Below, piece after piece: positions 6,819 through 56,842 of a stretch of 64,000 nt of DNA (the first letter of the stretch is position 1; each line of letters opens with the position of its first letter). The stretch comes from Diadema setosum. Its lineage: Eukaryota > Echinodermata > Echinoidea > Diadematoida > Diadematidae. A program made the position numbers and the translations under genes. The stretch is from NCBI RefSeq assembly GCF_964275005.1, contig NW_027307651.1, positions 620,001 through 684,000 of the forward strand, given 5' to 3'. The notes below the pieces were generated by a model that was not told where the DNA came from, did no database searches, and saw only the letters and a list, made by a program, of their open reading frames with translations.

Positions 6819-7118
6819 TGGTAGATACTGTCTCCAGCGTTCAGGGATGGAAAGGGGAAGAAATCCGACTGCCATGCCTCTTCCAAGGGGAGCCTGCAGC
6901 TGTGACCTGGGTCAAGGAGAGCGTCTTATATCAGCCGGTTCCCAAGGCTCAATTTAGTAATGGGACTTTTGAGAGCTTGGAGGAGGGATTCGAATTCGAC
7001 AGGGACTTCAGCCTTGCCATCACCGACTTGAAGTTGGCAGATGAGGGCCATTACGTTTGTCGCGTGCTTCTGAAGAATTTCGGGAATGTCGAAAATTCTG
7101 TCCATTTGACGGTTAACT
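6819..7118 (+). CDS. Gene A exon: Ig V-like domain
   Basis: The exon is 300 nt with phase 1 on both sides, the usual form of a shuffled Ig exon. It encodes ~100 residues. C20 in RLPC, W31 in VTW and C81 in the D-E-G-H-Y-V-C motif (D75, G77, Y79) are the canonical Ig core. The LAITDLKLADEGHYVC stretch and the final SVHLTV strand resemble V-set domains of nectin/PVR-like receptors. NFGNVENS is not a proper J-like FGxG motif. N48-G-T is a potential N-glycosylation site. Acceptor: TGTTGTACTCTTAG; donor: GTAAGT. Confidence 0.85.
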
Positions 7119-8582
7119 GTAAGTGATATTTTGTATCATGATGTGGAAGTCGGGGTTGGGTTTTTTTTTCGGTCTGCATTAACTTGTGAAAGAATTTGAT
7201 AAAATCAAAGCAACTGTCAGTGGAAGAGACAAATAAAGGAGTAAATAGCTATGATGGACAGGTTATTTGTCCTCAAATCATTTAACATATTGTCAGCCAC
7301 TTTAATACGAAAAGGGGGTTGTTTTTTATATCTTTTTTTCTCATTTTAGTTAACCTACTCATTTATTTGTTCTTGGTCTTTTTAAACAAAAGGAACAGTG
7401 ATAAAAGCAAGCTTTCTCTAGTTTTCATTAATTGTAATTGTATCAGTGTAACCGTGTTACTTTTATAATAAACCAAGTTGAAGTGAATTTATAGGCCAGA
7501 AATTATACTGCTCAATCATGTGTCAATGGTAAAGTGGGAAGCTAGTTCGCTGTTCATGGCAGGTGATGAATTTCAACAAATCAACCCGATGAAATCAACA
7601 ATACCAGTGATTCAAATCCTTCTCACTCTCCCCATTCTGAACGATAACTTCTAAATGTTCAGTATAACATCAAGGTATATGACCAATAAAATAATTATCA
7701 TAATCTATCCTCTTCTTTTTCTTTTTCTTTCTTCCTTTTTGTTTTGCATATTAAGAAGCAATATATTAACATTTTTGATTGCAATAGGTTGAATTCCGTG
7801 ATATTACCCTGTTGCAAGCTGCACATCAGCGTGTAATTATTCGTCACTATGGCATTGCTTGGGCAGAAGTCTTCATGATTTGTACGTGTATACAATACTA
7901 TAAAGAGAAGAGCTGCAGAATGTATATGCCTCTTGGGTGGGAGTGGGGAAAAGGAAAAGAAGGCAATATCTTACCATACTTTGGCGGGTTGCTGTGATAT
8001 CAATTGATATTCATCATGTGATTACACTATTCCCACCTCTCGTTCACTATAACGCCTTTCTCCAATGTTCCTGGTGTGGCATGGTTTGGTCAATTCCTCA
8101 ACTTGATCCTTTTGATTTGAAGTTATCTTTTTGACCTTCTGTACCAATATTTCGAAATCAAAAGCAAAAGAAAATGATAAAAAAATGACTGGCATTACCA
8201 TAGCAACTGTAACATTAAACAATATCTTATCTGAAAGTAAAACATAATTTGTTCTCGAGGAGTTTTAATTTTACTATTTACACAAAACAAAACGGTGGTG
8301 TTCGTTCTTTCAAAGGTTGATGTTATTATTCCGAAATACCTTATACCTCTTGATGATGAAATTCATTAACAGCGTTAGTCCGAAAATGGGGGAAAATACA
8401 TACACACACAAAAGAAGCAGAAAAGTGTGACTAACCCACATTCGAAATATCAGGAATCTTTGATTTAGTCAATCAAAAACTGCCTTAAATATTTACTTTC
8501 TAGAATACACATAATAAAATATATTATGAATAACATCTATATGTATATATGCATATATATATATTACTTATATATATATGTA

Positions 8583-8645
<63 letters not shown>

Positions 8646-11600
8646 TTATACTTTTAGTATACAGTGTGTGCCAGATCTTGTGCTTTTCTTGTTTCCTTAG
8701 CGCTGGCATCAAGACATATAATCGAGGAATGCGTCAATAGGAGTCAGTCCAGTCAATACCGATGCACGTACCAAGCCCCATCCAACGCTACTTCAATTAC
8801 ACTTACGTGTGTCGTGAGTGGATTCAAGCCTGACATTTCTATGATATGGACCGATGAATCTGGGGAGAGACTACAGTCCATGTCTTCGCTACGGACAACA
8901 CTTTCTGACTACACATACGAGAGGTTCGAGAAAATCAATATTTTAGTCAATCACGGGACAGAGCAAACCTTCGTGTGCATAGCTGTCGGTGACTCAGTAA
9001 ATGGAACGTCGACCGCAGAAATCACTCTTCTGCCTATATCAGGTTTGTGAAATTGTCAATTAATTATTTGTGGTTTTGAATAATAACGAGGAGTAGCATA
9101 GCTTCTGTCGTCACTACCAGAAATTCTGCACAACAAAAAAGTATAAACAATACTTCAACAAATGTTTTACATATGATTTGTCACTGGGAAGTCGAATCTG
9201 AGTTTGCTGTTTTGAGTAATATAATTGCTTGACCAAACAATCTTATAAGAGTATATTTTGCTATTACAAACACACGTTTAAAAAAAGCGTTAATGAACTT
9301 CGTTGAGTAAAGGCAATAACCGGGGGGCCGAAAGCTAAAAACAGAGGTCGAGTTGTACTCCCTCTACAAACTAAGTAGACCATGCTTATTTTCTAGTTTT
9401 AATTGTAACAAACAACATTCCAATGGTCTACCTCAAAAAAAAAAAATTGTTGCGAAAGCCTCCAATTCCAAGATGGCGTCCAAGATGGCCGCCTTATATA
9501 CTGAATTTGTTATTTGAAAGATAGAATTTGATAGACACATCAGATTTCAACAAATTTGATGTCATTTGAAAGATATTTAAAATTTCTACAAGTTGATACC
9601 ATGTTTGTGGTTTGCGCCAAGACTACTACACGCACCACTGGCACTGGCGCTTGTAGCAGTGCCAGTGGTGCGTTCAGTAGTCTTGGCAAACGCAGACTTT
9701 TTCTTTGACAAACAAGGGTTTGTGCCTGCAAACTAGCTTTCAGTGGTAGCTCAAGTGACGCTTATCGCTATTATTTCAAAGTAGATTGTTTTGAAGCAGA
9801 TGAGATGAAGCAAAAAATATTTTTCAAATAGAGGTAGTAGCTTGAAACTTGGCACCAATCTTATTATAGATAGTTTAAGACAGAATTTAGATCAACCACT
9901 CAAAAAATAAAATCTAGATGACAGCCATCAAAGTTGACACAGTGTATTGCGCCAGATTAAATGTATCATTTCGATTTTGATACAATTTTGTCTGTTGTGC
10001 TATCTATTTATATATTTTTGTATATTTTGAACATTGTAATGCTGTTTTAAACCGTCTTAGGTTTTTATGGAGAAATTTTTAAAACCAGTGATATTCTACT
10101 CTCCGAAAAAGAAAAAGTTTTCACTTTGGAAGGAGTGAATAACAGAAAACAATGAATTTAGAGTGAATTTGGAGTGAAGTATTTTAGAGTGACCTTAGGG
10201 ATCACTCGTCACTCTTCGAGTGATTCCTGTGGTCACTCTAAAATGAATGAAAATGAACATTTTCACTCTCGAGTGATCCTGATATCTAATACGGGAAAGC
10301 ATCTACCAATGGCACAAGTTCAGATCAATTATTGTGACACTATAATCCATTTGAAATCAGCCTAAAAACGATGTAAAAAAAAAAATCTAATAACAGTAAA
10401 TACAGTTTCAGCATGCTTGTTTTTAAATATGAATATACATCACGAATAATCAATTTGGACAGTTTTATTCGAACAATATTCTAAAAAGTAATTTCGCAAA
10501 ACACATTCAAGAGCAAATTTGAGAAATTGCAGCCACGTCGGATACTTGGGGGGGGGGGAGAGTTTTTTTTTTTCTCGGATCAGAAGGGCTTCCAAGGACA
10601 TCTACGACAGACATTATTACACACATACCATCATCATTCAAGTTTCTACAACAGCAGAGTAACATACAAATAAAAAAAGCATATCTTTGATACAGAAGCA
10701 TATATTTTTATATCAAAGATCGGGCCTTACCCAAACACTGGAATGAGCTCCACCCCCCCCCCCCAAAAAAAAAGACCCTCAATATGGTTTACACTATAGT
10801 ACAATATCGTTCTGATGTATAGAAACATATAATTGACAGGAATATAAAAAGATTAAAAAAACAGATCAAATTATAAGTTGAGATTTAACTTTGACGCAAC
10901 ACACTAAAGGTATTGTTTACCATTGGGAGAGATATCACATTCGATTTATATGTGCAGGTTAGTTGTATTACAAAACATTCTACCATGTAAAAAAAATATA
11001 ATAAAGCCTAAAACATACAGAGATATTACCATTTCTTTTCAAGAAACCATAACCATGATAAGTGTTGACAGCTTTGTATAAAAAAAAAAAAAAATTCTTA
11101 TCAGATCTATTTAGTATATCTAACAACATTTAGCATCAATTATACTGATTTAAGTTTGTACATTAGTTGTTCTATCCCTAACTCACAGTTTAGAACTAGT
11201 TTGAGGAATTAACTAAAGCTGGTTTTTTGTTTCACGTGCACTAATGGAAATAATATCTTTAACGACAACCTGGATCAATTACCGCCATCTTGAATTTTGT
11301 GTGAATACTATCTTTGTCACTAAATATGACACATTGGCAAAATTTGTGCCAAATTCCAAGCTCCTTCTTCTTTTTGGAAAATACTTTCTGTCCCATCTTA
11401 TCTGCCTCAGTACAATCTAAATTTGCTATGAAATGCTACAGTAATAGCGACCAGCGTCACCTACCACTTGGCATGAAATGCGAGTAACTAGACCATTCCA
11501 GTACTGCAAAATGAATAGATAATGCATAAATATAATTTTGTCAAGTTTGAGATGTTAACTTGTCAACAGTGTATGATATTGCCTGTAATTACATGATGAA

Positions 11601-14600
11601 TATGAATTGTGTCTCAATCTCAATCGCAGGTTTCAAAGTAATCCTTCAGTTCTTCTTTGATAAATACTAAATCACGCATTTTTACATTTCTTCCTTTTTT
11701 CAAAACAATAATTATATAAAAATATGGATTCCCCCCCCAAAAAAAAGAGAGAAACAAACAACCCCCTCACAAATATATCACAATATACAGCTAAAGTGGT
11801 ATCAACAGTTAGTACGTTTTATTCTCCATTATATGACATCAAATTTGTTGCAATCTAATGTCTCTATCAAATTTTATATTTGAAATGTTAAATTCAATAA
11901 AAATGGCGACCCTATTGGACCGCATCTGTACTTTGGAGGTTTTCGCAACAAATCTACAGAGTGTACTTACGGAACATTGCTTAGTGTATTTAATATTGTG
12001 TATGGTCTTGCGTATAGAGAGTGGAACTCGAAAAGTAAGCACAATCTTGCCAGTGGATTTGACCCTCTGTGTAGTCTTTGGGAACAGATGCCTGTTAATA
12101 CATGATATCATGTAAAATGAGATTTTAAGTTTGAGACATTATAACTTCTGAACCAAATACAATACTGACCTCTAATTTTCTCCAAATATTAATCATATGG
12201 GAAAGATGTTAATTTCTACATGGTTTTCATAGACATTTTTATTATTTTTTTTTTACTTTTTAGAGAAATATTCATGGTGCATTCTGAAAAATGTCTCCAT
12301 AAAAACCTTGGACGGTTTGAAATAGCAATGCAATGTTCAGAATATATAAAACCATAATTATAACTAGACAGCAAAACAGAAAAAAATTGTATTAAAATCG
12401 AAATAATACATTTACTTTGGCGCAATACACTATGTCAGCTTTGATGGCCTGCAATCTTGAATTTTTTGAGTGATTGATCTAAATTTTGTTTAAACTTTCC
12501 TTAGCAAGGTTGTTTTAAGCTTCTACCTCTATTTGAAAAATATTTTTTGCTTCATATCATCTGCTTCAGAACAATCTACTTTGAAATAATAGCGATCAGC
12601 GTCACCTGAGCTACCACTTGGTATGAAAAGCTAGTTTGCAGGCACAAACCCTTGTTTGTCAAAGAAAAAGTCTACACGCACCACTGGCACTGATGCAAGC
12701 GCCAGTGCCAGTGGTGCCTGAAGTAGTCTTGGCGCGCGCCTTTTTTTTTTTTTTTGTTACGACCAACATGGTCTTGTCACAACTAAAGTGGCCATTTTTA
12801 CAAAGTGAGTTTTCAAGTTTGAGACATTATAACTTCTGATCCGAAAATGTTACTGACCCCTAATTTTCACCAAATATTAAGTACATGTCAAACAAAATTC
12901 TGGAAACGTTTCAAAATAATCCTTCAGTCTTTCTGTGATTTATGCTGAATAAAGCATTTTCATGATTTTCCTTTTTTCAGAAAAATATCAAAAAAATGAG
13001 TGTTTTTTCCTTAAAATCTCAATCTAGTTATCACAATAACCCACAAATATGGTATCAACTTGTAGAAATTTGAATTTTCTTTCATATGAAATCAAATTTG
13101 TTGAAATCTGATGTTTCTATCAAATTCTATCTTTCAAATAACAAATTCAGTAAATATGGCGGCCATCTTGGACGCCATCTTGGATTTGGAGGCTTTCGCA
13201 ACAATTTTTTTTGAGGTAGACCAGTGGAATGTTGTTTGTTAGAATAAGAACTTGAAAATAAGCATGGTCTACTTAGTTTGTAGAGAGAGTGGAACTCACT
13301 CGAAAAGTAAGCGGGTTTTGGGGGTTTGGCCCTCCGGTTACAAGGGCCAGTACCAATGTACTTTTGTGAAAAAAAGAAAAAAAAAAACGCTTTTACCCGT
13401 TTAGTCAACTATGTTTTCGACGCTGCAAAATGTGTTGATGCTGTTAATTATCGAGAAACTGTTTTTCGCTTCTTGCTCATGTAATTATTGAAAAACGCGA
13501 TTTTGCTGTGTCTTTAACAAATTTAAGGAAAGCGTGAGAATGTCGGTCTCATCGTTGGACTAGTCATTGGTATACCAGCTGGCGTATCCATCCTGTTTCT
13601 CCTTTTTCGAAAGTTTCGGCAAGCATCCGATCAGGAGTACCTACAGCAAAGAGGTGTCCTTTTATGTTTTATGTTATTTCATTTGATTGCTTGTTTTCTT
13701 CATAAAATCACTAAATTGGGATGTACCAAGATAGGTGTAGCCCTTTGTGCCCTTCAAATAGTTGTAATGATATGATTAGAATTGTTTTTAATCAAACATT
13801 TCTGCACTGTCTGCATAATATTATAGTAACAGAATCAGCAAAAAGAAATAAAAAAAAAACGATTAGTCCATATTTGCCAAATGGAGATATTTACGATTAA
13901 AGGTCAAGAAAAATAAAGAGAATAATAAGAAAGTTTTTGCTTCTTTTGACCATAACTTCAAAAATGTACCTTTAGTGACCAATATATCATTTAAAAGGTA
14001 TTATTTTGTACTTTATGACAGAGACCGTACTTCAAAATCTTCAAAAATGGACTTAAATCGGTTTTTGCGAACAAACTCTCCAAATACAGGATCTCTCGTT
14101 TTACAGTCATAAGATTTTTAAAGTCGCTTTTCATGTTGTCCAGTTTCGGAGGAATCATCACCTGCCCAACAGACAACCATAGATTTTGAAGATGGGAGCA
14201 GAAAGTGGTACTCCGTACAATGGTCGGACTTCAAATTTTGTTGCAGACGACTCAAAGACGTGTCCACGCAACACGTGAGTATTCGTGGTTATGTGTAGAG
14301 CGACAACACTCTTCATGTAGACAAAAAAAAGATCATTATTATAGGTAAATATTTGTATCACTATGAGCGTTGTGTTACACCCTTCGATGACACTGAATGC
14401 TGAATCTTGTGCTCAATGGCAGAATGAATACATTTGTGTTGTTTTTGTGAATGGTTCCTTGACAGGCAGTGCATGAAAGCATGCAGCTTGTAACGATCTT
14501 ACCGAATAGGCTGGCAATGTATACCACACAGTCTCTGTCAATCTGTTGGCATATCGTCGGCAAGACACAGTGCATCAAACTGCTATGTCACTCGCATATT

Positions 14601-17600
14601 GTATATTGTGATTACAGATATTGCAAACCGTTTATCAAAGGGAATTTTAAATGATGTAATTCCATGTTTTATATGAAAGTTGAGTGAGGGAAGGAATTTC
14701 GTTTCTTCTTATTTTTTTCATTGAGACTGAAGAAGTTGAGTCACTCTTAAAAGTCTTTATATTCCTGCACTGGCTGACTTTTATCACAATAGCCTGAAAA
14801 CGAAACAAACAAAACAAACAAACAAAAATATTGACGCAAGATATGAGTACTCTGGAAATATACTTACCTATTTGAATATCGGAATGCCTATACCTTGTTT
14901 TTACATTTGGCTTTTACATTCCCATTTATGTGCATCGCACTGAATCTTCACTGAAATAACTAGGAATGAGGGTGGAATAGATGAGGCAGTTGGAAGTGTT
15001 GTGAATTTTCTTGGTTTCCTTGATCATTTATACTGGCATCTTAATGTGATATTTTTTGTTGTCATTATTGTTGTTGTAATCAATACGATATCATTACATA
15101 CATTATTGCAATATCGTTACAGCATTACTGTTATAATTATAAGAGTTACCGCGGCAATGTCCGGGTAACGTCCTGGTTTTTGTTTGTTTGTTTGTTTGTT
15201 TGTTTGTTTGTTTGTTTGTTTTTTTACCTTGACTTATAAAACGGTCCCCGAGTAGAATTTGACAAAAATTACCGACAAAAACACCCCCTACAAAAAACAA
15301 AAACAAAAACAAAACAAAACGTAAGACATTGCTCGATATCTAATTCCCTGGCAAGCATCCTATCAGAAGGCAAATGCGGTAACATTCCTTTGATACACTC
15401 AACACGCATGCGCATCATTGCAGAGAGAGAATGATTGACGCTCCGATCATGTGCATGGATTGTAATTTCTGGGCCCCATTTCATTAAAAAAAAAAGAAAA
15501 AAATGTTAGGATGACAACATTGGACACTGGAATGGCAACTTCCAGTAGCAACACCCAATCAGGAAGCTGAAATGGCAATTGTCATGGTAACGATTTTCAT
15601 TGCCATTTCAGCAAGAGTTACTATCATATCAACTTTTTATGAAATGGGGCCCTGATTTCAAGTATATTATAGTTGAGATCATTGGTTGTAACCATGTTTT
15701 GTTTGCGCAGAATCTAGAAAAATAGGCCGCTCTGGCCGATGGGCGGGGTAGTCGCATCGGTGGACGCACTCCCATCGTGGAAACATACCTGTGTGAATGT
15801 GTCTTTTAAAATTGTACCCTCGCTGTCTCCTGCGCTTTTTTGTCCGAGGGGAGGAATTGTTCTCCGGACGTTGTCGTGACTTTGTCGCGGTAAGGTCTGT
15901 TCAAATGGGGCTCAGTTCAGTGTTTTACCCCATGTTCGAGTTTTTTGTTTTGTTTTGTTTTTTTTTTTTGGGGGGGGGGGTGTCTTTTATGTACCCACCG
16001 TGGTGTATACACTGTATAATACGACAGACGAAGAATAACCAAGCAATAATGACCTTACAGGTTGAGGGTTGTAGCAGATACCAACTTTCTTCGTCAACCG
16101 AAGACATAATCTTTTAAAACTGCTTTTATTACATTACATGGTTAGAAGAGCTCCGAACCCATATGAGCCGTGTGAGTTTGTGAAGGGCGTTTCACCGCCA
16201 GAGCTGGGGGAAATTTTGGTAAATTTCAACTTAAAATATTAATTTTCACAATAATTTTGAAAACAAATCGTTCATGGATAACTACGTATATGTGTATGTG
16301 TATGTTACGTGCTTTCCGAGCGGACCTCAAGTCGCCTCTTCCTCTTCCGTTGTTATCACGGACATGGAGAAAGCACATCAGCAGCAGCTCATTTCATTCA
16401 CCTGACGGTTTGTTAGATTTAGCTTGATAATGATTCAAGTTACCATTAAAAAAACCCACTCAATTAATGGTACTTTTTCTTTAAAGCGAAGTCAGAATAC
16501 CAAATTTGTATTGACACTTATTGACATTATCATGCGGTCTATCGTATCATTCTCAAACCCTCCCCATCCCTCACCTTTCACCGCTTCAAAAAAAAAAAAA
16601 AAAAAAAAAAAAAAAAGCAATCAGGAAAATGAGATAAACTGTAGACTTTAATTCTTTCTGTTCCAATGAGTCACAAGGGCACACATTTCACAGACAAACC
16701 AGTCGACAGGAAAATAAAAAGTGGCATGCAAACGGTTAATATCATGGTTTGCAATATCTGCCTATCATTAATATTGGGGGATTTCAAGTTCCGTGCTACA
16801 TAGCACTGGGTCTGTAGTGTTATCTCCTAAACAGCCGCCTTAAATCGAGCTCCAACATCTGCGGTCAGATTAAACACAAGCTACAACACTATTGGACAGC
16901 ATACCTGAAAACACTGTTCATCGAAACTGAACTCATCTTTTTCCCTTTCAGCCCCGAATACCTTTCTGCGTGTACGCCCTCTATCGGTTCACACTCGCCG
17001 CCTATTTCTTCGGGTTTTTGATCACGTATATCATATTGGCAAGGGAGGCAGTTGGCCCGAAGATCTTCATTTTCCCCGGTTTTTGGACACATATTACGAC
17101 AACATGTTATGTTTGCTTTGCCTGTTTTAATGTTGCGATGGACCTCAAGAACAGCATGACGAAGGCAGCACATGAAGGTACGGGGGTAAATTTTCTACAT
17201 GACGAAATAGAAGCTTGTTAAATCTTGAATTGATGTTGTTACCCTACGACAACAAGATATATATGACCCGCTGCAACAAAATGATCCGAAAGTCAGGGGA
17301 GGAAAATGTTCTATAGATGACATAACATCATTTCCTTACTAGTCTTCATATAGCATGATTCACAAAAAGTACTCGGTTGCGGAGATATCGATGATTTTAT
17401 TAGTGCATGTCGAGTGGTGTAAGAAATCAGCGTTTCGAGAAAACTGCTTTCAAAGTTTTCCTTCCGGCGTTATCATTATCAAGGGGAAGCAAGGCAATAG
17501 AATACAATAGAATGCAGCATCCTAGCTAACTCCGCGATGTTCATTCAAGCTTAGCGCCAGCAGTTTACGCACGACCAATCAGTAACCAGCGTGCTACGCA

Positions 17601-20600
17601 CTGATCAATGAGATCACTCGCTCGTTGCTATGGGCGGAGTCTAGCTGCAGCGCTAAATCGGACACATTTCTGTTCAGTTGAAAGTCGGAAAATCATGGCC
17701 CAGAAAAATGCCATTTTCTTGTCTTTCCCTTGTTCATTTAGCTTTGAAATTTCGGAAGATGATAGAAGATACATTAGACTACAAAATTACGTAAATAAAA
17801 ACACCGAAATCTGAAAGTTTTGACGGAATTTTGATGATCTGACTTCAAACTCGATTTTCTCGGCTCACCCGTCAGTGACTTTAGGTACCTTTGGTTGTAG
17901 CGGGTCACATATATCATCGACGATTTCTGGCATTGTGAACTTGATTTAAGGAAATGTGTTACACTGTACTGCATTTATTTCCTGAGCTTTGTAATCACGC
18001 TCGAAGTGATACACATACACACACAACACTCAAATACATATATGTGACCATGCATCACAAAACGAACAAAAAGTCGCACCCCATGATTTCACGTTTGGGA
18101 CTCAAAAAAGGTGAAACGGGTCAAATAAATTGCTTTTTTATTTTTCTTTAAGGAACGACCCTTCTCCTATATTATTACTGAATTTGGGATCATAAAATGA
18201 ATGGAAAGTTACATTTTTAGCAGTTTCTCTATAACTCTTTTTGTAGAGTGGTGAGATCATGTGTGTCTTAGAGGCCCCTATTCATTTTTGATAACCCTTT
18301 TGCACACTCTTCACTTTCAAGTCTGATAACTTTTTGAAGGGATAAGGCTACTGCTTTGAAAGTGTTCATTAATCATGGTCTGTATGTGTTAATAGTGCCT
18401 GCTCAATTTCAAATTGATCTGATAATCCCTTCATTGCAATGCCCCCGGTGGTTTACATCCTGTTTTTATTTCCCATTCATCGCATGGCTAGCACGTTGTG
18501 GTAAAGATCAAGCGCTTGAATAGACAGGTAGACCCTATGATTCAGAGCCTCTTTTCTCGATTCACACTTTTCCAGAGTGTGTGCCTTTTTTTCAATATAT
18601 AAATAGGTTAGGAGAGTACAGTTCAATTCAGCTAAACATCATTTTAAGGCTTAGAGTCTACTCTTTCAGAATCTGCCCTTAACTGATATTCCCTGTCTGG
18701 CGACCTTCTGTTTGCTTTGTGATGCAGGGTCACATATATGAGGTTAACACAGAAAAAAAATCATCATGACTTTCAACCGTGCTTGCAATGGTCTGTTATA
18801 TTACTTCTCTCAATGGAAAAGGAAACACTGAGTAGGTCCCTGTGGTGAATTTGGTCACATACGGATTGTCGTCATTTTGGTAACATTTTGTGAACATTTT
18901 GATTTTGTTTTTGTTTTTCTCGATAATATCAGAAACACCAAGCAAGTCATATCCTTCATCCTGCTAAAGCAGCGAGAAACTGCTTCTTTCATAGATAGGT
19001 TACATATATGTAACCGTGCACCTCAAAACGAACATAAAGTCGCACACACTGATTTTGCGTGAGGACTGAAAATAAGTGAAATGGGTCAACTTGACTTTTT
19101 CATATTTTCTGAAAGAGCGGGTCTTCGTTTACATTATGCTAAAATTTGGTATCATAAAACGGGCAGGAAAGTGTGTTTTTTTAGCAGTTTATCTTGAACA
19201 TTTTTGGTAGAATAGTGTGGTTAGGTGTGTCTTTAGAATCCCTTTTTCATTTCTGAAAAACATTGTCCACACTCTTCACTTTCAACTCTAATAACTTTTG
19301 AAAGGATAATGCTACTGCTTTGAAAGTTGGCATTAATTATGGACGGAATGTGTTAATGAGGCATTCTTAATTTCAGTTTAATTTGATAATCCCTTCATTG
19401 TTGTTATTCTGGTGGTTTGCTTCCTGTTTTTTGTCCCATTCATCGCACAGACAGTACGGTTTGGTTAGATTAAGATTAAGCGCTTGAATAGACACTGTAC
19501 TTCAGAGCCTCTTTTCTCAGTTCACACTTTTCCTGAGTTTGTGCTTTCTTTCCAATGTTTAGATAGGTTAGGAGAGTACATTTGATTTGAATTATATATC
19601 ATTTTAAAGCTTAAGGTCTGCTCTCTCAGAATAATTATGGTCTTAACTAAAAAGTCATATCTGGCCACTTTTTGTTTGTTTTGAGGTGCAGAGTCACATA
19701 AATATGAGACCAAACTCGTCATTTTGATGAATTTCAATTGATAGTATCTACCAGAATCAAGCAGAAACGTGGATATATCAGAAGAGAAACATAACAACAT
19801 GTTGATAGATTAATTTGGTAGTAGGAGAGAACCTCGCAAACCATGAATTTTCTTTCTCAGAATCAATTCAAATTTTAGGGAAGATCATTCTACAGACTCT
19901 GTCATTATTCAATTTTGTGACAAAACAAAAATAGTTGAAGCTTTTATTAACAAGGGACATGATATAGGAGTTTTCATGAACCTGATTTAGACATTTGATA
20001 CTATTAACTACAATATTCATACTAAAAGATTAAGATATCATGGCGTCCGAAGATTACCTGTGTTATGTTCACTGATTTTTAATCTAACAGTATATAATGA
20101 GCAACATGTTGATTTTGACTCATGTTCCTGCAAGACATTATAAATAAATTGTGTAGTACCACAAGGGTCTATCTCGAGCCCCTTTTATATCTTATCTATG
20201 TGAATGATTCAACCAATGCTTCACCAATTTTAACTATATCATTTGTTTGCAGATGATAATAACATATCTTATTTACATAAAGATCCTCAGACACATGTCT
20301 GTGCACTTGATTTTGAATTATGTACAGTTTCTTCTCGGTTCAAGTGCAATACATTATCCTTTAATATTGATAAAACGAATTTCATATGTTAATGTGACCC
20401 TGCACTACAAAACAAACAAAAAGTCGCCAAATGTGAGATTTTAGTGAAGACCATATGTGACCCTGCACCTCAAAACAAACAAAAAGTCGCCAGACATCAA
20501 TTTTTAGTCAAGGCCATATTCTGAAAGAGCAGACTGTAAGCTTTAAAATGATGTATACCTCAAATCAAATCGACTTTTCTAACCTATCTAAATATTGGAA

Positions 20601-23600
20601 AGAAAGCACAAACTCAGGAAAAGTGTGAAATAAGAAAAGAGGCTCTGAAGTACAGTGTCTATTCAAGCGCTTAATCTTTACCAAACCGTGCTGGCTGTGC
20701 AATGAATGGGACAAAATCAGGAAGTAAACCACCAGAGTAACAACAATGAAGGAATTATCAGATTAAACTGAAATTAAGAATGCCTCATTAACACATTCTG
20801 TCCATAATTAATGCCAACTTCAAAAGCAGTTTTAGCACTATCCTTTCAAAAGTTATTAGGGTTGAAAGTGAAGAGTGTGGACAAGGCTTTTCAGAAATGA
20901 AAAAGGAATTCTAAAGACACACCTAATCACACTATTCTACCAAAAATGTTCGAGATAAACTGCTCAAAAAACACACTTTCCTGCCCGTTTTATGATACCA
21001 AATTTTAGCATAATGTAAAAGAAGACCCGCTCTTTCAGAAAATATGACAAAGTCAAGTTCGGCTAAGTTGACCCACCTTCACTTATTTTCAGTCCTCACG
21101 CAAAATCAGTATGTGCGACTTTATGTTCGTTTTGAGGTGCACGGTCACATATTGTGAAAGAGCAGACTTTTAGCTTTAAAATGATGTATAACTTAATTCA
21201 AATGGACTCTCCTAACCTATCTAGATATTTGAAAGAAGGCACACACTCAGGAAAAGTGTGAACTGAGAAAAGAGGCTCTGAAGTGCAGTGTTTATTCAAG
21301 CGCTTAATCTTTAGCAAGCCGTGCTGGCTGTGCCATGAATGGGACAAAAAACAGGATGTAAACCACCGGAGTAACAACAGTGAAGGGATTATCAGATTGA
21401 ATTGAAATTGATCATGCCTTATTAACACATTCTGTCCATAATTAATGCCAACTTTAAAAGCAGTAGCGTCATCCTTTCAAAAGTTATAGGACTTGAAAGT
21501 GAAAAGTGTGTACACCGTTTTAAGAAATTAAAACGGGACTGCAGAGACACAATTAATCTCACTACTCTGCCAAATAATATTCCAGAAAAACGGCTAAATT
21601 GTATACTTTCCTGTACGTTTTATCATCCCAAATTTTAGCATAATGTAGAAGAAGACTTGGTCTTTCAGAAATCATCACACAAAATCAGTGTATGCGACTT
21701 TTTGTTCGTTTTGTGGGGCACGGTCACATATATCAAAAAGTTCATTCTTTTGATATTGAATATAATTGTGACCCGGTACAAAAAAAAAAAAAAAAAGGAT
21801 CCTAAAGTTGCTGAACGCCGAGCCGAGAAAATCGAGTTTGAAGTCACTTCGTCAATATTGGTCAAAACAATCGGAGTTCTGTTTTGGGGATAATTTTGTA
21901 GTCTAATGTTTTGTCCAACATCTGCCAAAATTTCGAAGCTAAATGATCAAAAGACAGGCAAGAAATTAGCGTTTTTCTTGGCCATGATTTTCCGACTTCA
22001 AATGTAAGAGAAACATGTCCGAAGATTTAGCTTTAGCGCCGTAGGTAGACTCCGCCCCTAGCATCGAGGGAGTGATCTTATTGGTCAGTACGTGGCATCC
22101 TGATTACCGATTGGTCGTGCGTAGACCGCTGGCGCTAAGCGTGACTGAACATGGAGGAGTTCGCTAGGAGCGTGCCTGCTATTGTAAAGCGGTGAAAACT
22201 GTCTCGCCTCCCCATGACCATGATAGCGTCGGAAGGACAACTTTTTTCTCGAAACTCTGATTTCCTCAACCACTTGGCATGCGCTCATAAAATCATCGAT
22301 ACTCCGCAATCGAGTACTTTTGTGAGTTGTGATATATGAAATCAAAGTAGAAGAGTACAAGAAAAACATCATGCCATTTTTCAGAAAATTGTCCTCCCCC
22401 GACTTTCGGATCTTTTTGTTGTAGCGGATGACAATTTATATATTGATGTTTTACCCTTTGTAAAAAAAAAAAAAGAAAAAAAAAAAGAAAAAAAGGTCTA
22501 CCAAATTCCTTGGTGTAATCGCTGATGCCAATCTTACCTGGAATAAAGACGTAATACAAGTACTATTATATCGAGAAATAAATATTTATCTATTAAACTG
22601 AAGGATCTTTTAACAGAAAAGTTTGTTTTCATTTTGTACAATGCACTGAATCTAACATACGTGACGTACTGCAATGTGGTATGGACATAGTCTAACAAAA
22701 CAAAAAGTCAATCAGTTTACCTTCTCAATAAGAGAGCATCCCGTACTGGCACCAACTCACCTCATCTTGCAAACTGTGAACCACTATCTCTAAATTGAGG
22801 CCCTGAAAATAAATGATATTCATACATTACAATGCGCAATATTTATGTACAAATACACATCCGACACCCTACCATCCTCGTCACAACCTCTTCACCGTTA
22901 CGTCCAGCGTCCACCCTAACCCAACTCGAGACGTCAGACTATAACCTCCACACTCCCAAGCTAATGACATATCACAAGCCAATTAGTCACTTTCTACCAG
23001 ATGTTCGGAATTATGTCCCTGAGCAAATAAAGACAACCACTAAATTATGTTATTCTTAGCCATTTATGACAAATGCCTTTTATCGAAATATGATAATGAA
23101 TGAGTGATAATGTTAACTCAAAAACAGCTTACAGGTATATTACGAGTTCGGTAATTTGCTGTATGCATTTTTTTTTTATTGTTTTATGATCACATTAAAA
23201 TCAATAGTGTAAATATAAATATGTAATAGAAATGCACATGGCACAGGATACACTAAAAACAAACCCACTTAAGTATCATGCCCAAACGTTAAAATTAGCA
23301 AAACTGCATTTAATGGCACATACAACACAACGCAGCACAGCAGAGCACTCACCCCAGCATATCAGTTGAGTGGAGAATGTCTCTTGAAAACAAATGAACG
23401 ATAGCTAGTTTGAATTTCCCCTGTATTCTTTGTGCTTCACAATTTACTACAATATTTTTGGGTTGATTATTGATTTGATTTTGTGGCAACATCCGTTCTA
23501 CAGTTTTGAAAATCGTATTTAAGTCTCTTTACTTTTTTCCCCTAGACCTCAAACCATGTCAAGTTGCTGCTTATGATCACGGTATCCTGCGTTTACGTTA

Positions 23601-25244
23601 TTGCAATGTCTATAATTGTACAATTCTAAACTCAATTCATTCAGATCCTCCTCTTCAGCATTTCCGTATATTTAAAATATACTGTATAAAATAATTTTGT
23701 TGAATATTGATGTAATTTATTAATTCAATTTTTTGTAAAATATTCAATGTTTTTGTTGGAAATGATGAAAAATAATGAATAAATGAATGAATTAAGATTT
23801 GAATTGATATCAATTTTAGATATCTTGTGTTTGCGTAATTTTGCCAGCACCCGGAACTACAGATTCAAAATGGTAGAAAAAGATGCAACAGATTGGATGA
23901 CGACACAAAAATGGAAATGTATTTGTGACACGTAAAACATGTCAGGGGAGGACAATTTTCATGGGGAGGACAAATGTCATGACATAATTCTCTTACTCTT
24001 CTACTTTGATTTCATATACCCCAGTATAACACAACTCATAAATGTACTCGGTTGCGGAGATATCAATGATTTTATTAATGTATGTCAAGTGGTTCAGGAA
24101 ATCAGAGTTTCGAGAAAAACGCCTTCAAAGTTTTCCTTCCGACGCTATCATGATCAAGGGGAGGCGCCACAGTTTTCACCGCTTGACAATAGAAGGCATG
24201 CTCGTAGTGACCTTCGCGATGTTCATTCAAGCTTAGCGCCTGCGGTCTACGCACGACCAATCAGTAATAAGGATGCCACGCACTGACCAATACGATCACT
24301 CCCTCGTTGCTATAGGGGAGGAGTCTAGCTGCGGCGCTGAATCTAAATATTCGGATACGTTTCTGTTATGATGAAAGTCGGAAAATCATGGCCCAGAAAA
24401 ACGCCAATTTCTTGCCTATCCTTGATCATCTAAGCTTCAAAATCTCGGCAGATGATAGACAAAAGATAAGACTAAAAAATAATGCCAAAAATAGAAATCT
24501 GATTGTTTCGACCAATTTTTATGATGTGACTTCAAACTTGATTTTCTCGGCTCAGCCGTCAGCGACTTTAGGATTCTTTTGTTGTAGCGGGTCACATTTT
24601 TTTCCAACAAGCCGTTTCCCAAGCCATTTTTTAGAAAACCCCGAAATCCTAACCAAATTTCTAACAATGCATTCTAGTTGACGAGGGCGCCTCATCACTG
24701 TTATTCTCTCTTTCTCTGCACAAAATGATCTTTTGTTGTACTTTCAGACAAATTGCGATACCAGATTCAGTGGTTTCTTTTTAACTTTACGGCCGCTCCT
24801 TCCATCCTCACAACTCTTGCCGACTGGCAGCACCTTAACTTCGTTGTGTTTATCATATCGGACAAGGTACCGTTGTTGCTTTACATCAGTTTACAACCGC
24901 TTCCTGCAGTTGTCTGCCTCATCGAAATCTTCCTCACCCTGATCGTCGTCCGCTTCGTACACGCGGTCTACCCGTTCCTTTTCGTGATTACCTACGAGCT
25001 CTTCCTCGTCACATATTGGGCTACTGGGGGAACAGACCAGAACGGATACCGTATCACTGCTTATTATCTCAATTTCGAAGAATACCCCGGCATTGCGGCC
25101 GGAATCCTGGTCGGCTGTGTTTTGACAACGCTGGTGTTTCACGCAATCTTAAAGGGATTGTACGCCATTCGTGTCCGATGTATGGATAGGAGAACAGAAG
25201 CTGTGCCTCTTACAGATGAGGTGCCAGCTGTCGAGCTCGAATAG
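6819..25244 (+). CDS. Gene A: Ig V - Ig C1-like - TM - Rolling stone chimera (spliced, leader exon not found)
   Basis: Six exons are seen: 6819-7118, 8701-9042, 13528-13653, 14144-14274, 16952-17177 and 24748-25244, each bounded by AG and GT. Junction phases run 1,1,1,1,0,1 and fit without a break. The predicted protein has, in order, a V-set-like domain, a C1-set-like domain with an extra cysteine pair, one transmembrane helix with a basic stop-transfer (RKFRQ), a ~44-residue cytoplasmic linker (WYSVQWSDFKFCCRRL), and a Rost-family multi-pass domain with YRFTLAAYFFGFLITY, IQWFLFN, FVHAVYP and TYWATGGTD. Rost proteins are usually ~270-300 residues with six to seven membrane segments; here that domain is fused to an Ig receptor. 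Drosophila Rost is required for myoblast fusion. Coupling of surface recognition to a fusion-type membrane protein is inference. Copy B repeats the same exon order and phases, which supports a single gene. No stop or frameshift was seen in gene A. Confidence 0.8.
7119..8700. other. Gene A intron 1 with TA microsatellite
   Basis: No gene was recognised. A (TA)n run lies at about 8584-8641, some 60 bp before the next acceptor TTTCCTTAG. Open frames across the TA run are low-complexity artefacts. Confidence 0.6.
8701..9042 (+). CDS. Gene A exon: Ig C1-like domain
   Basis: The exon is 342 nt, phase 1 on both sides, ~114 residues. SITLTCVVSGFKPDISMIWT carries C37, the G-F-x-P turn and W50; C93 lies in TFVCIAVGD. 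The C37-C93 spacing of 56 and the CxVxGFxP pattern are C1-set features. Two more cysteines (C11, C22) precede the fold and may pair. Potential N-glycosylation sites are NRS, NAT and NGT. The copy B homologue at 49631-49914 plus 56782-56842 is closely similar. C1-set domains are classically associated with jawed vertebrates, so this assignment needs profile testing; an I- or C2-type domain is the alternative. Confidence 0.85.
9043..9317. other. Gene A intron 2, left part
   Basis: Donor GTTTGT follows the Ig C exon. No gene or clear repeat is seen before the foldback element that starts at 9318. Confidence 0.5.
9318..13339. mobile_element. 4.0 kb foldback element in gene A intron 2
   Basis: Long inverted arms run at about 9318-10085 and 12285-13339. 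Matching points include AACCGGGGGGCCGAAAG versus GGTTTGGCCCTCCGGTT at the ends, AATTGTTGCGAAAGCCTCCA and its complement near 13185, the GCACCACTGGCACTG block in both arms, and AGCAGATGAGATGAAGCAAA opposite TTGCTTCATATCATCTGC. The flanks fit a TA duplication (CAATA|ACCGG and CCGGT|TACA). A further diverged copy of the right arm occupies about 11210-12120. A short ACTC palindrome lies at 10113-10281. G and C homopolymers lie at 10551-10559 and 10755-10765. No transposase was seen. Confidence 0.7.
10113..10281. repeat. ACTC-rich palindrome
   Basis: TTTTCACTTTGGAAGGAGTG at the left is mirrored by ATTTTCACTCTCGAGTGATC at the right, with TCACTCTTCGAGTGA at the centre. It is related to the repeat at 1335-1462. 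Confidence 0.5.
13528..13653 (+). CDS. Gene A exon: transmembrane segment
   Basis: The exon is 126 nt, phase 1 on both sides, ~42 residues. It starts GKRENV, continues with a hydrophobic helix GLIVGLVIGIPAGVSILFLL, then basic FRKFRQ and a polar tail SDQEYLQQR. This is a typical single-pass helix with a basic cytoplasmic stop-transfer signal. Copy B (57297-57395) has the same helix but ends right after RKFQQK, so its exon is 27 nt shorter. Confidence 0.85.
13850..14080. mobile_element. Family 5 short inverted-repeat element, copy 1
   Basis: About 230 bp with termini AAAACGATTAGTCCATATTT and the inverse AAATCGGTTTTTGCGAACAA. The interior TAAAGGTCAAGAAAAATAAA and ACTTTATGACAGAGACCGTA recur at 48461-48697 and 61339-61586. 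Non-coding; it lies in the intron just before the cytoplasmic exon of gene A. Confidence 0.7.
14144..14274 (+). CDS. Gene A exon: cytoplasmic linker
   Basis: The exon is 131 nt, phase 1 in and phase 0 out, ~44 residues. It reads VSEESSPAQQTT, then an acidic IDFEDGS, then RKWYSVQWSDFKFCCRRLKD. Copy B keeps the second half best (KKWYSIKWADFKLCCRRLRD). In Rost-family proteins a short N-terminal segment with an SQW-like motif precedes the first membrane helix, and KWYSVQW may be its counterpart. The CC next to basic residues could be palmitoylated; this is speculation. Donor: CAC|GTGAGT. Confidence 0.8.
14275..16951. other. Gene A intron 4: repeats only
   Basis: No exon was recognised. It holds a (GTTT)n run at 15181-15222, a GGGCCCCATTTCAT foldback at 15470-15653, homopolymer T/G at about 15959-15980 and a ~30 bp A run at about 16587-16616. 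The stretch 15700-15900 contains CCGCTCTGGCCGATGGGCGG and similar GC-rich bits of unknown nature. Confidence 0.5.
15470..15653. mobile_element. GGGCCCCATTTCAT foldback MITE
   Basis: The ends are TGGGCCCCATTTCATTAAAA and the inverse TTTTTATGAAATGGGGCCCT. The interior has complementary halves (AACTTCCAGTAGCAAC, GAAATGGCAATTGTCATGGT, CATTGCCATTTCAGC). ~184 bp and non-coding. Repeats with this terminus are common in echinoderm and other marine invertebrate DNA (general recollection). Confidence 0.7.
16952..17177 (+). CDS. Gene A exon: Rolling stone domain, N-terminal part
   Basis: The exon is 226 nt, phase 0 in and phase 1 out. It begins PRIPFCVYALYRFTLAAYFF, a hydrophobic helix with the family's LYRxxLAxYF pattern, followed by GFLITYIIL, then IFIFPGFWTHITTTCYVCFA as a second helix, and ends DLKNSMTKAAHE. 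The layout (short N-terminal segment, TM1, loop, FxTxWxxxxxxxYF-like TM2) matches Rost proteins. The copy B exon (58887-59112) has exactly the same length but carries a TAG near its start. Confidence 0.85.
17262..17909 (+). mobile_element. TGTGACC element, family 2, copy 2
   Basis: The left end reads TATGACCCGCTGCAACAAAA, the right end TTGGTTGTAGCGGGTCACAT. Shared interior blocks include GCGGAGATATCGATGATTTT, CGTTTCGAGAAAAC and CCCAGAAAAATGCCATTTTC. ~650 bp, in the last intron of gene A, starting 85 bp after the donor at 17178. Confidence 0.8.
18043..18734 (+). mobile_element. TGTGACC element, family 1, copy 2
   Basis: A 692 bp unit starts TGTGACCATGCATCACAAAA and ends TTTGTGATGCAGGGTCACA. 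The flanks are TA-rich (ACATATA before, TATATG after). Interior landmarks shared by the family are TTTTGAAAGGATA-like, CTTGAATAGACA, CAGAGCCTCTTTTCTC and TAGGTTAGGAGAGT. Non-coding. Confidence 0.85.
19009..19698 (+). mobile_element. TGTGACC element, family 1, copy 3
   Basis: A 690 bp unit starts TGTAACCGTGCACCTCAAAA and ends TTTTGAGGTGCAGAGTCACA. It is similar to copy 2 throughout and retains the same landmarks (CTTGAATAGACACTGTACTT, GAGCCTCTTTTCTCAGTTCA). Non-coding. Confidence 0.85.
20393..21728 (-). mobile_element. Two family 1 elements, one inserted in the other
   Basis: The outer element starts at 20393 (TGTGACCCTGCACTACAAAA), is cut after GAAGACCATA at 20455 and resumes at about 21152 with TTGTGAAAGAGCAGAC, ending at 21728 (GGGGCACGGTCACA). 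The inner complete copy spans 20456-21150 (TGTGACCCTGCACCTCAAAA to GAGGTGCACGGTCACA). Both have the reverse orientation relative to copies 2 and 3. The insertion point lies next to a TA step. Confidence 0.8.
21777..22433 (-). mobile_element. TGTGACC element, family 2, copy 3
   Basis: It starts TGTGACCCGGTACAAAAA with an expanded A run, continues with GGATCCTAAAGTTGCTGAAC, and ends TTTTTGTTGTAGCGGATGACA. It is the reverse orientation of copies 1 and 2 (GGCCATGATTTTCCGACTTC near 21980 is the complement of their GTCGGAAAATCATGG). It splits the LINE at 19850-23060 a second time. Confidence 0.8.
23924..24595 (+). mobile_element. TGTGACC element, family 2, copy 4
   Basis: The left end is worn (TGTGACACGTAAAACATGTC); the right end TTTTGTTGTAGCGGGTCACA is well kept. 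The interior reads GCGGAGATATCAATGATTTT, CGAGAAAAACGCCTTCAAAG and CATGGCCCAGAAAAACGCC. The longest open frame of the family (97 codons from 24388, MAQKNANFLP...) runs here and extends past the element end. The element ends ~150 bp before the last exon of gene A. Confidence 0.8.
24748..25244 (+). CDS. Gene A last exon: Rolling stone domain, C-terminal part and stop
   Basis: The exon is 497 nt, entered in phase 1, ending in TAG at 25242-25244. It encodes DKLRYQIQWFLFNFTAAPSI, hydrophobic stretches around FVVFIISDKVPLLLYI and VVCLIEIFLTLIVVRFVHAV, then YPFLFVITYELFLVTYWATG, the family hallmark YWATGGTD, and a last helix PGIAAGILVGCVLTTLVF followed by KGLYAIRVRC and an acidic tail EVPAVELE. Four to five membrane segments are likely here. 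The Rost assignment rests on the WxLxN, FVHxxYP, YWAxGGTD and PGxAAG motifs together. Confidence 0.9.
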
Positions 25245-27647: not shown

Positions 27648-28011
27648 GGGAAATCTGATACCAGATTCAGTGGTTTCTCTTCAACCTCACCGCCACTACT
27701 TCTATCATCATAACCACTCTCGACTGGGGGCCGTTGTACATTGCCATATCGATAAAAGTACCAAACTTGTTTTACGGCAGCATCCATCTACTTCCCACCG
27801 TTGTCTGCGTCATCAGAAATATCCTCACCCTGATCGTTGGCCGCTTCGTGCACATACTACATCTTCTTAATGAGCATCTACCTGCTCTTCATTGTCATAT
27901 ACTTGGCCACTGGAGGAACGAATGCGTTCGCCATTTCCTTCATTGTCGTCTTCGAGAACCACCCCAGCAGAGAGGCTGTCATAGTAGTACTCGTGACCTT
28001 GCAGCAAGGAG

Positions 28012-30211
28012 TATACCCTCAGCAAAAAAAAAAAAAAAGAAATTCAATTCAATTCAATTGTTATTTTCCACTCATGGGGTGGAACACCCTCGTCAGCCAA
28101 AGGCTGGTTTTCAAAAGGGTCCACACATTGATTAAAAATACAAACATTATACGTACAGTATGACACTTTTTCTATTCCATATTTTTCATGGAAGATTTTA
28201 GTCAAAATCTTTGTGTCATATACCATATTAAAGGTTATTTAATTAGCTATCAATCCAGTAGGTTAGTACAAAGGGAAATTTCACGCATGAGTGAACACAT
28301 TTTTTTTTTTGTCTTCGAAGGCACGAAAGTAAAAATTGCAGAACTTGACAGTTGGTCATTCATTTGAAAATGCATTCATTCAATTCAATTCAATAGTTTA
28401 TTTATTTCCATCATCACAAAGAAAGAAAAGAAAAAGTTGACATAATCCACAGTGATACAATTTTTTTTCATTTCTCTTACACTCGTCCGATAAAGGATTT
28501 TTTTTTTCAATACAATATAAAGTATATTATACACGAATGGTGTCGTAAAAAGAAACAATGCACTTTGTCATGGCAACAAAAATAGTAAATAATCACAATG
28601 ATGGAAACCAGTGTTCCACTAAAAAAGCCACGCTTGTAAAACGTGGAACACTGGAACAAAACAACAACAGCACCAATTTGTTATACCAAATAGACATATT
28701 CATTTCAATTCTTCTATATACTATTGTACATTTTACTAATTGATATAATGATGTTGATACTATGAACAATACTTACTAGGATTTTAGGATGCAATCGTAT
28801 AAACTATATAACATATCACATTTGTGGCACAGACACTATGGGGCCAGGTGTGCCAGGAAAATTGAATGGAAAAAGATATGCAATCTGCCACAAAAAACAT
28901 AACGACGACAACAACAATAACACAATACACAGAAATAACAAAATTTGAGGAAATGCACTCAGACAGATACTGGACAACGAAGAACGAGGAAAAAGTAGCA
29001 GGGAAGAATAGAGAAGGAAAAGGAGAGGGATGGAAAAGGTCTGTGGACACACTACAAAATCTCAAGGAAAAGTGAAACATGACGGGTTTTTCCATTAAAC
29101 AGAATTAACTGGTATATTTAGAAAACAAATATTTTTTGAGTTTATACTTAAATGTAATTAACTTCACAGATTCTTTTAGATCATTATCTAAGCTATTCCA
29201 AAATCTGGGTCCGGTATAAACAAATGTATTTTGAGTGTGTACAGTTCTAACTAAGGGAAGATGAAATTCTTTAGATTGTCTAGTGGGATAATTATGTACG
29301 TGGCTGTTACGGTGAAATAAAGAATAACATATTTTGGGTAGATGATTGCAGTTGTAATTAAACATAAATTGACCAAGTTGTAACAAATACAACTCATTTA
29401 TTTTCAGAATGTTGTGCTCAAGGAAAAGCTTGTCAGTATGTGCTCGGATATGAAGGTAGCACTGATAGCAAAAGATTAGTTTAAGACAATGAGAGATATG
29501 AATGAATACCAAAAGTAAGCTTTTTGTTCCCTTGTATCTCTTTATATCCTCAAACAAAAAGGAAGTGGGAAACTAAAGGAGGAAAATAAAACCTTTTTTG
29601 TCCACTCAAATTCAAATGACATAGGGAGTAAGCCGTAAAGGTGATTCAGTGAAAAGAATTTCTGTATTTCATTCTTTTAATTTAGGAATTTAAGAATTTA
29701 AGAAATCATGATACAAATTCAAGAACCAAATATTTTCAATTTTTTAAATTTGAAATAACATTTCGAATTTCTACCATTTTTGTTAATACTGCCTCTTCTC
29801 TAATGTCATTTGAATTTGGATATTACAAAATATTCTTCATTTTCTCCATTTTTTTTTTGCCTTTCTTTATCTTTGGAGGCTACAAAGACATTATAGAGAT
29901 CAGTGGGTGATTCTGTACATTAATTTGTGGATCTGATCGTGTTAAATTTGTCTTTTGCTCTCATTGTTACATGAGAGAGCACATACGCATGAATAAGAAC
30001 TTGTCCATTTTTGCAATTTTTACTTTTGTGCCTTGGAAGAGAAAAACACATGTGTTCACTCATGCGTAAAGTTTCCCTTTGTACTAACCTACCAGGGTGA
30101 TAGCCAATCAAATTACCTTTAATATGATATATAAAATATAAATATTTAGCCAAATATTTTATGAAATATATGAGCTTGGAAAAGTGTTTACTTTTTTTGC
30201 TGAGTGTATAT
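28012..30211. mobile_element. Inverted-repeat element with TATACCCTCAGC ends, inside copy C exon
   Basis: The left end TATACCCTCAGCAAAAAAA matches the right end TTTTTTTGCTGAGTGTATA in reverse. Subterminal arms also match: GGTTAGTACAAAGGGAAATT then CACGCATGAGTGAACAC at 28261-28297 against the complement at about 30045-30095. The element itself carries LINE 3' tails (about 28031-28220 and 28372-29557), so the core is only a few hundred bases. No transposase was seen. Confidence 0.7.
28372..29557 (-). mobile_element. LINE 3' fragment (ORF2 tail and 3' UTR)
   Basis: On the minus strand the frame at 29105-29557 reads LFHRNSHVHNYPTRQSKEFH, then LPLVRT, TGPRFWNSLDNDLKESVKLI and KYKLKKYLFSKY. This is the classic C-terminal tail of CR1/L2-type ORF2 proteins, with a stop near 29105. 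The downstream UTR runs to an AATTC/GAATT tandem at about 28375-28395, which is a typical short 3' microsatellite tail. It is heavily 5' truncated. A second, shorter tail of a related type is at about 28031-28220. Confidence 0.7.
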
Positions 30212-45592: not shown

Positions 45593-45668
45593 ATGATGGA
45601 TGAAATATCCGACGTCGTTCTGTTATTAATATTGACTGCCTCTGTGTTCTGTGGGCCCACGGCGGAAG
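45593..45668 (+). pseudogene. Copy B leader (signal peptide) exon
   Basis: ATG at 45593 and a second at 45596. The second has A at -3 and G at +4, a better start context. The peptide MMDEISDVVLLLILTASVFC then GPTAE has a hydrophobic core VVLLLILTASVF followed by a small-residue cleavage region, typical of a type I signal peptide. Donor AAG|GTAACT leaves phase 1, which fits the phase 1 acceptors of both the V exon of gene A and the Ig C exons. It is intact; it is listed as part of the pseudogene copy. Confidence 0.7.
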
Positions 45669-49630: not shown

Positions 49631-49914
49631 CGACGGAATTACAACATGGAATCGAAGAATGCACGCATAAGAGCCAGTCCAATCAAAGCGGGTGTACGTA
49701 CCAACCTCCCTCCAACACTACGTTCCTTATACTTACGTGTGTCCAGAGTGGATTTAAGCCTGATGTTTCTATGATATGGACCGATGACTCTGGAAAGAGA
49801 CTAAAAAACCGTGGCTTCGCGACAGACATCATTGTCTGACGACACATACGAGAGGTTCGAGAAAATCAGTGTTTCAGCCAAACATGGGAGAGAGCAAACC
49901 TTCGTTTGCATAGC
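49631..49914 (+). pseudogene. Copy B Ig C1-like exon, 5' part
   Basis: After TTTTTCCCCAG the phase 1 exon reads GIEECTHKSQSNQSGCTYQP, then TCVQSGFKPDVSMIWTDDSG and KRL. One extra A in the run at about 49803-49808 shifts the frame; beyond it DTYERFEKISV and REQTFVCIA match gene A. The exon is cut after TGCATAGC by the ~6.9 kb insertion. The single-base change lies in a homopolymer, so it could be a sequencing error; the insertion cannot. Confidence 0.85.
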
Positions 49915-56450: not shown

Positions 56451-56781
56451 CTCCCTCTCACATATATTAAAAAAAAAATGTTTTCATACTTTTAAGGTCT
56501 GATTTTCCGCCGAAAGTCATCTGATAAGCAAAAAAAAAAAAAAAAAAAAAAGCAAAAAGAACTTCGTCTTCATATTTTTGCTGCCACTTTCCTCCCACAT
56601 TATATTTCATGCAAAAGAGTGGGACATCCGATCCCTGTATAAAGTGTGTGTGTGTGTGTGTGGGGGGGGGGCACCAAGCTTCTCCCCCCCCCCCTCCCCA
56701 AGGCTGCGCCGGTCCGGTGGGCTTGTAATCGTGGTGATGGTGACCATCCCCCCCACTCCTCAGGACGGATTTACGCCGTTG

Positions 56782-56842
56782 GCTACCGGTGACTCTCTGA
56801 ATGGAACGTCAACCAAAGAAATTACTCTTCTGTCTATACCAG
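56782..56842 (+). pseudogene. Copy B Ig C1-like exon, 3' part
   Basis: It reads ATGDSLNGTSTKEITLLSIP and ends at donor G|GTTCTG in phase 1, matching VGDSVNGTSTAEITLLPIS of gene A. This is the remainder of the exon split at 49914. Confidence 0.85.

Follow-up and report, generated by a model that had tools for sequence, protein, structure and literature searches.

What does this stretch of sea urchin DNA encode? The window analysed here, 64,000 nucleotides of the Diadema setosum genome (C25:620001-684000; exon positions follow window numbering unless prefixed with C25), holds six exons of a predicted seven-exon gene for a signal peptide, a V/I-set and a C1-set immunoglobulin (Ig) domain, a single transmembrane (TM) helix, a linker and a multi-pass Rolling stone (Rost) domain. 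Relatives of this gene occur in many copies in one genome, alongside stand-alone genes that look like their source. Its architecture, and a division of the related loci into two classes, can be read from the sequence itself; the direction and mechanism of the fusion we infer. Taken together, it is probable that a fusion gene of seven exons arose by splice capture, spread in tandem with mixing between loci and encodes a receptor with a ligand-triggered role at the membrane. We found no earlier description of such an Ig-Rost receptor architecture, and the literature searched turned up no Ig-Rost family, in agreement with the first-pass annotation of this DNA, which knew of none. The genome searched comprises 912,680,840 bases; the published D. 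setosum assembly is given as 912,728,646 bp in 101 scaffolds (PMC13264686).

A predicted Ig-Rost gene and its surroundings

The first-pass annotation had joined six exons of matching phase into a V-like domain, a C1-like domain, a TM helix, a linker and a Rost domain, and had proposed comparing them with the V-set, C1-set and Rost profiles. Its model is borne out: the six exons (Table 1) form one frame of 539 codons that closes at the terminal TAG, all five introns are GT..AG, and the joined six-exon protein matches the Pfam profiles I-set (41.2 bits, residues 5-98), V-set (40.2 bits, residues 6-98), C1-set (21.6 bits against a cut-off of 21, residues 129-192) and Protein rolling stone (PF21534; 39.1 bits against a cut-off of 26.8, residues 304-521, i.e. 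the C-terminal 218). Whereas Protein rolling stone is known as a stand-alone protein, the predicted window protein places two Ig domains and a TM helix, with a signal peptide in front, ahead of this Rost part. The signal peptide, 24 aa in length, comes from a seventh exon at C25:619706-619777, 295-224 bp before the window start, which was recognised through its similarity to the public protein P0010; its phase-1 donor matches exon 2 and brings the whole protein to 564 aa. With Ig domains above the Pfam cut-offs, a signal peptide and a single TM helix, the product has the features of an Ig superfamily receptor. A second, near-identical signal-peptide exon (L058, C25:614861-614932) lies about 5 kb further upstream of the window gene.

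Table 1. Predicted exons of the window gene and of its copy B, with one further fragment (window numbering)
Feature	Position	Strand	Basis
Exon 2 (first of the six exons of the first-pass annotation), V/I-set Ig domain	6819..7118	+	in-frame, GT..AG, Pfam I-set/V-set
Exon 3, C1-set Ig domain	8701..9042	+	in-frame, Pfam
Exon 4, single TM helix, phase-1 donor GAG|GTGTCC	13528..13653	+	joined frame, donor phase
Exon 5, cytoplasmic linker	14144..14274	+	linker-exon alignments
Exon 6, Rost part 1	16952..17177	+	in-frame, Pfam
Exon 7, Rost part 2 and stop codon TAG at 25242-25244	24748..25244	+	in-frame, Pfam
Frameshifted fragment of another (third) Rost part-2 exon, immediately following the window gene	27659..28016	+	alignment
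Signal-peptide exon near copy B, donor G|GTAACT	45596..45667	+	similarity search
Copy B, C1 exon, frameshifted	49636..49915	+	alignment
Copy B, detached tail of C1 exon	56731..56859	+	alignment
Copy B, TM exon (aligned stretch)	57290..57424	+	alignment
Copy B, linker exon, open, fusion type	57652..57783	+	alignment, linker classes
Copy B, Rost part 1 (aligned stretch), TAG at 58908	58842..59111	+	alignment
Copy B, Rost part 2, TAG at 60476, alignment gaps	60248..60697	+	alignment

The predicted topology places two Ig domains outside the cell, followed by one TM helix and a multi-pass domain that starts on the cytoplasmic side. Hydropathy suggests that some six long helices follow the one TM helix of the window protein, and a low-confidence AlphaFold2 model of P0002 (pLDDT 55.9) comprises one long helix, a disordered linker and roughly six long helices. 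Sequence searches of the PDB (query A1) matched the Ig part to antibody constant regions, IgE and similar chains (best E 8e-4) and returned no match for the Rost part.

Public protein models support the joining of these exons. P0002 (D. setosum, 393 aa) is 100% identical to the window gene product over its length and crosses four of the junctions (C1-TM, TM-linker, linker-Rost1 and Rost1-Rost2); it begins at an ATG within the C1 exon, the V exon being omitted from the annotated model. Further annotated C1-TM-linker-Rost proteins are found in D. setosum (e.g. P0004, P0005 and P0008) and in D. antillarum (e.g. P0014 and P0035), the latter being examples of proteins with both domains in a related genome, for which the first-pass annotation had suggested looking. 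Beyond Diadema, no Ig-Rost fusion stood among the matches listed by protein searches, P0039 on a 583-base contig excepted, and such searches for the fusion in other echinoderms depend on shared short words, two of the three having considered at most 8000 candidates. Two D. setosum models appear to reflect read-through or annotation error: P0001 runs on past its Rost part into a V domain resembling the one at the next locus, and P0016 carries a V-like piece between its Rost exons.

The window also contains a second copy of the gene (copy B), whose unchanged exon order and phases had been put forward as a reason not to regard the fusion as two neighbouring genes read together by chance. This description stands in part: C1, TM, linker, Rost-1 and Rost-2 follow in the same order and on the same strand, but no V exon was found between 45596 and 60697 and the C1 exon is frameshifted. 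With C1 frameshifted and split and a TAG in both Rost exons, copy B is, as its exons read, a degraded pseudogene. By itself it does not prove the fusion, since tandem duplication of two neighbours would also have preserved the exon order; owing to its degradation, better support comes from other loci. Between its C1 and TM exons lies a large tandem-repeat array (50823-54521), with units of ~155-174 bp and a higher unit of 447 bp. Elsewhere in the window, positions 31605-31952 hold a tandem pair of nearly identical 176-bp units (97% matches), and two ORFs on the minus strand (62301-63068 and 29105-29572) resemble, on inspection by eye, stretches of a reverse transcriptase from a LINE-type retrotransposon.

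Linker exons of two kinds

How widespread are the parts of this gene? With a Rost query, 144 matches were obtained at the level of exons; nearly all fall on C25 and at 38.8-40.6 Mb of C4, with a few on C1; the weakest, elsewhere on C4 and on C8, resemble ordinary Rost genes. Matches to the linker exon, about 58-59, are confined to C25, the same interval of C4, and C1. The TM exon has 103 matches in the genome and the C1 exon at least 150 among 281 candidates; many of both sit on contigs that lack a linker exon, the TM exons there being far from any Rost exon. Some matches on C25 pair with matches at 38.8-40.6 Mb of C4 at equal scores and in reversed order, and the loci L033 and L038 are 96.5% identical over ~8.5 kb. 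C25 may in part represent a retained alternate version of the C4 cluster, from the other haplotype; since this pairing may be allelic, all locus counts are upper bounds.

Aligned to a query of 51 residues that combines several public models, the 59 linker loci fall into two clear classes and a small remainder: 38 are of fusion type, their match starting at residue 6-12, 17 are of stand-alone type, with a start of their own and a match from residue 1 or 2, and four are truncated. Among the stand-alone type, the exon contains a stop at L031 and L032 and has GTG for ATG at L049. Annotated proteins that start in the linker exon represent this class in both species (P0032 in D. setosum; P0028, P0031 and P0034 in D. 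antillarum).

The two classes differ in what lies before them. In the 10 kb upstream, and on the same strand, a TM exon is present at 31 of the 38 fusion-type loci and two of the four truncated ones, as compared to none of the 17 stand-alone loci (Fisher p = 5e-9 for fusion versus stand-alone type). A more sensitive comparison raises the fusion-type loci with an upstream TM exon to 34, leaving four without (p = 9e-11, again versus 0/17); both tests treat loci as independent. This comparison covered 20 loci of 10 kb. A TM stretch was detected at all 14 fusion-type loci among them (just 12 residues in one case), C1 at 12 and V at six, whereas V, C1 and TM exons were absent at all six loci of stand-alone type.

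Proposed origin and spread of the fusion

The acceptor of exon 5 corresponds in position to coding sequence just after the start codon of stand-alone Rost genes. Over that start codon, all 14 fusion-type loci aligned with five stand-alone loci have a gap of 13-14 nt (14 nt in 13 loci and 13 nt in L025), and ~40-50 nt upstream of the gap can still be aligned between the classes. At the junction itself, AG is found in 15 of 16 fusion-type loci (L039 has TG) and, as coding AG, in 11 of 14 stand-alone ones. The 20 nt before the junction contain on average 13.8 pyrimidines in the fusion type versus 8.7 in the stand-alone type, and an upstream in-frame ATG is present at one of 16 (L056) versus 11 of 14 loci.

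The simplest reading, as we infer it from these alignments, is one of capture: a small deletion occurred, and the donor of an Ig-TM gene took over the first coding exon of a Rost gene that had until then stood alone. The two genes would have been neighbours, the phase-1 donor of the Ig-TM exon coming to splice into this Rost exon; the deletion would have removed the Rost start codon, and a pre-existing coding AG would have become the acceptor. The donor occupies the identical position in all three non-Rost TM exons read and hence also serves other tails. Ordinary Rost is known as a stand-alone protein, and there are numerous Ig-TM genes that lack Rost, which argues for the direction from stand-alone to fusion. 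If so, the step can be followed base by base, from a lost start codon to a coding AG turned acceptor, and would provide a clear example of how splice capture can give birth to a gene. In a tree of 13 fusion-type and five stand-alone proteins with four ordinary Rost exons, the stand-alone P0029 branches first; a single clade of all fusion types was not recovered, P0005 and P0011 grouping with stand-alone types, so reversals, repeated origins or exchange would be required.

Could the window instead hold two neighbours, an Ig-TM receptor and a Rost gene, that were duplicated together and are joined just by annotation or occasional read-through? Annotated models in the Ig-Rost cluster can indeed merge separate genes, as seen for P0001 and P0016, and stand-alone Rost genes are present in the same clusters. 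Moreover, an in-frame stop follows about ten codons beyond the TM exon of the window gene, so intron retention could give a short isoform, that is, a closed Ig-TM product. We regard such a pair of neighbours as improbable nonetheless. In the window gene, the linker exon lacks an in-frame ATG, an in-frame stop lies a few codons upstream of the acceptor of this exon, and the next Met sits within Rost part 1; an exon without a start and closed upstream is reachable by splicing alone, and on this point the earlier rejection of two neighbours read together by chance is upheld. In addition, the start-codon stretch is lost in the fusion-type loci and kept in the stand-alone loci, and it is the fusion-type loci that have both the pyrimidine-richer acceptor and the upstream TM exon. 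A separate stand-alone Rost start exon was sought within the window: the pattern 'M.SEG' is absent on both strands, and tblastn gave no convincing match. Chance joining of the exons is ruled out by the Pfam matches, the homologous proteins and the two clear locus classes. The junction 14274/16952, on which the first-pass annotation had staked the fusion, occurs in stand-alone Rost genes too; the diagnostic junction is 13653/14144.

Following splice capture, the Ig-Rost family would have spread via tandem duplication, with ectodomains and Rost parts mixing between loci. Between the window gene and its closest paralogue (C25:466-475 kb), dS is 0.12 for V, 0.16 for C1, 0.18 for TM, 0.18 for the linker and 0.13 for Rost part 2, with dN/dS of 0.40-0.64 across these five exons (here and below, dS and dN rest on 25-164 codons). 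Such similar dS values have the pattern of a gene that was probably copied whole. Against the gene at C4:38.92 Mb, dS amounts to 0.14 for V, 0.20 for C1, 0.41 for TM, 0.37 for the linker and 0.73 for Rost part 2, and against C4:39.19 Mb to 0.37 for C1 and 0.11 for Rost part 2. This synonymous divergence suggests that ectodomains and Rost parts were later exchanged between loci. Four of the five comparisons of Rost part 2 give a dN/dS of 0.33-0.59, and the fifth, against L023, gives 1.02 on few codons; for the TM exon, dN/dS exceeds 1 in several pairs of 25-41 codons. Identity in the C1 half and in Rost showed rho 0.09 (p 0.40) over 91 pairs of 14 proteins, a weak comparison that includes partial sequences (P0009 without a proper C1 half, P0035 and P0037 with only part of Rost). 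The tree of C1 halves has zero starred branches.

A possible role at the membrane

What might an Ig-Rost receptor do? The closest likeness in architecture is to AjNLRC4 of the sea cucumber Apostichopus japonicus, an Ig-TM-NACHT protein described as binding bacteria via its Ig domains and driving phagocytosis (PMC8699970). Like the window protein, it is a membrane receptor of an echinoderm in which two extracellular Ig domains precede a TM helix and a cytoplasmic module that is unusual for Ig receptors. The module is NACHT in AjNLRC4 and Rost in the window protein, in which Pfam detects no NACHT after the TM helix, and the likeness is one of architecture. In Diadema, six of the 26 homologous proteins combine the same ectodomain with NACHT tails (P0019-P0021, P0023, P0025 and P0026), and a recognition receptor with exchangeable tails is therefore the simpler frame. 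Together with AjNLRC4 and the resemblance of two ordinary Rost exons to AIG1/ADTRP (see below), these NACHT-tail forms lead us to favour a recognition receptor whose Rost part would act on membrane lipid or membrane traffic. The Ig ectodomain might bind a microbial or cell-surface ligand; clustering via the single TM helix would bring Rost, as a tethered domain, to the site of contact and might there let it act on a membrane lipid or on traffic such as uptake. Should the Rost part work on lipids, recognition would act directly on the membrane.

A more specific proposal would make Rost a lipid hydrolase of the threonine/histidine type, like AIG1/ADTRP, and the fusion a ligand-gated one. AIG1 and ADTRP are described as six-TM hydrolases of FAHFAs that use Thr and His (PMC8123165), and the multi-pass FAR-17a/AIG1-like family (PF04750, Far-17a_AIG1) is matched near its cut-off of 24.5 bits by two ordinary Rost part-2 exons of this genome (23.9 and 24.5 bits). 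However, these are just two of seven ordinary Rost exons and close paralogues of each other, and the fusion-family proteins scanned gave no match (the window protein, P0008, P0014, P0018, P0027 and P0029). The candidate catalytic His of ordinary Rost is, moreover, a Gln in the window protein, in a correspondence made by eye and unproven. We consider a gated hydrolase rather unlikely.

The first-pass annotation had pointed elsewhere, to a receptor that couples recognition to membrane fusion as for Drosophila Rost, in allorecognition or immune-cell fusion. Drosophila rost is required for myoblast fusion, going by the title of Paululat et al. 1995 in the reference list of PMC9309062, and the many ectodomain relatives in this genome fit a role in recognition. 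Yet nothing in our analysis, beyond the shared name, ties Rost to the fusion of cells or membranes, the NACHT tails on the same ectodomain point to immune signalling, and the Rost parts have diverged far from those of ordinary Rost genes, with 23-35% identity in part 2; a membrane-fusion receptor thus appears very improbable.

Diadema Ig C1/V receptors without Rost have the same V, C1 and TM exons and phase-1 donor as the window gene, and their tails are NACHT, GTPase-like (P0024) or short. One could picture a single Ig-TM cassette whose shared donor serves Rost, NACHT and GTPase-like tails, the loci reassorting and Rost being a ligand-controlled lipid enzyme or an inactive relative of one, a broader scheme to which we assign a low probability. 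In P0024 (D. setosum), the same ectodomain and TM helix precede a GTPase-like tail, all Pfam matches of which fall below their cut-offs.
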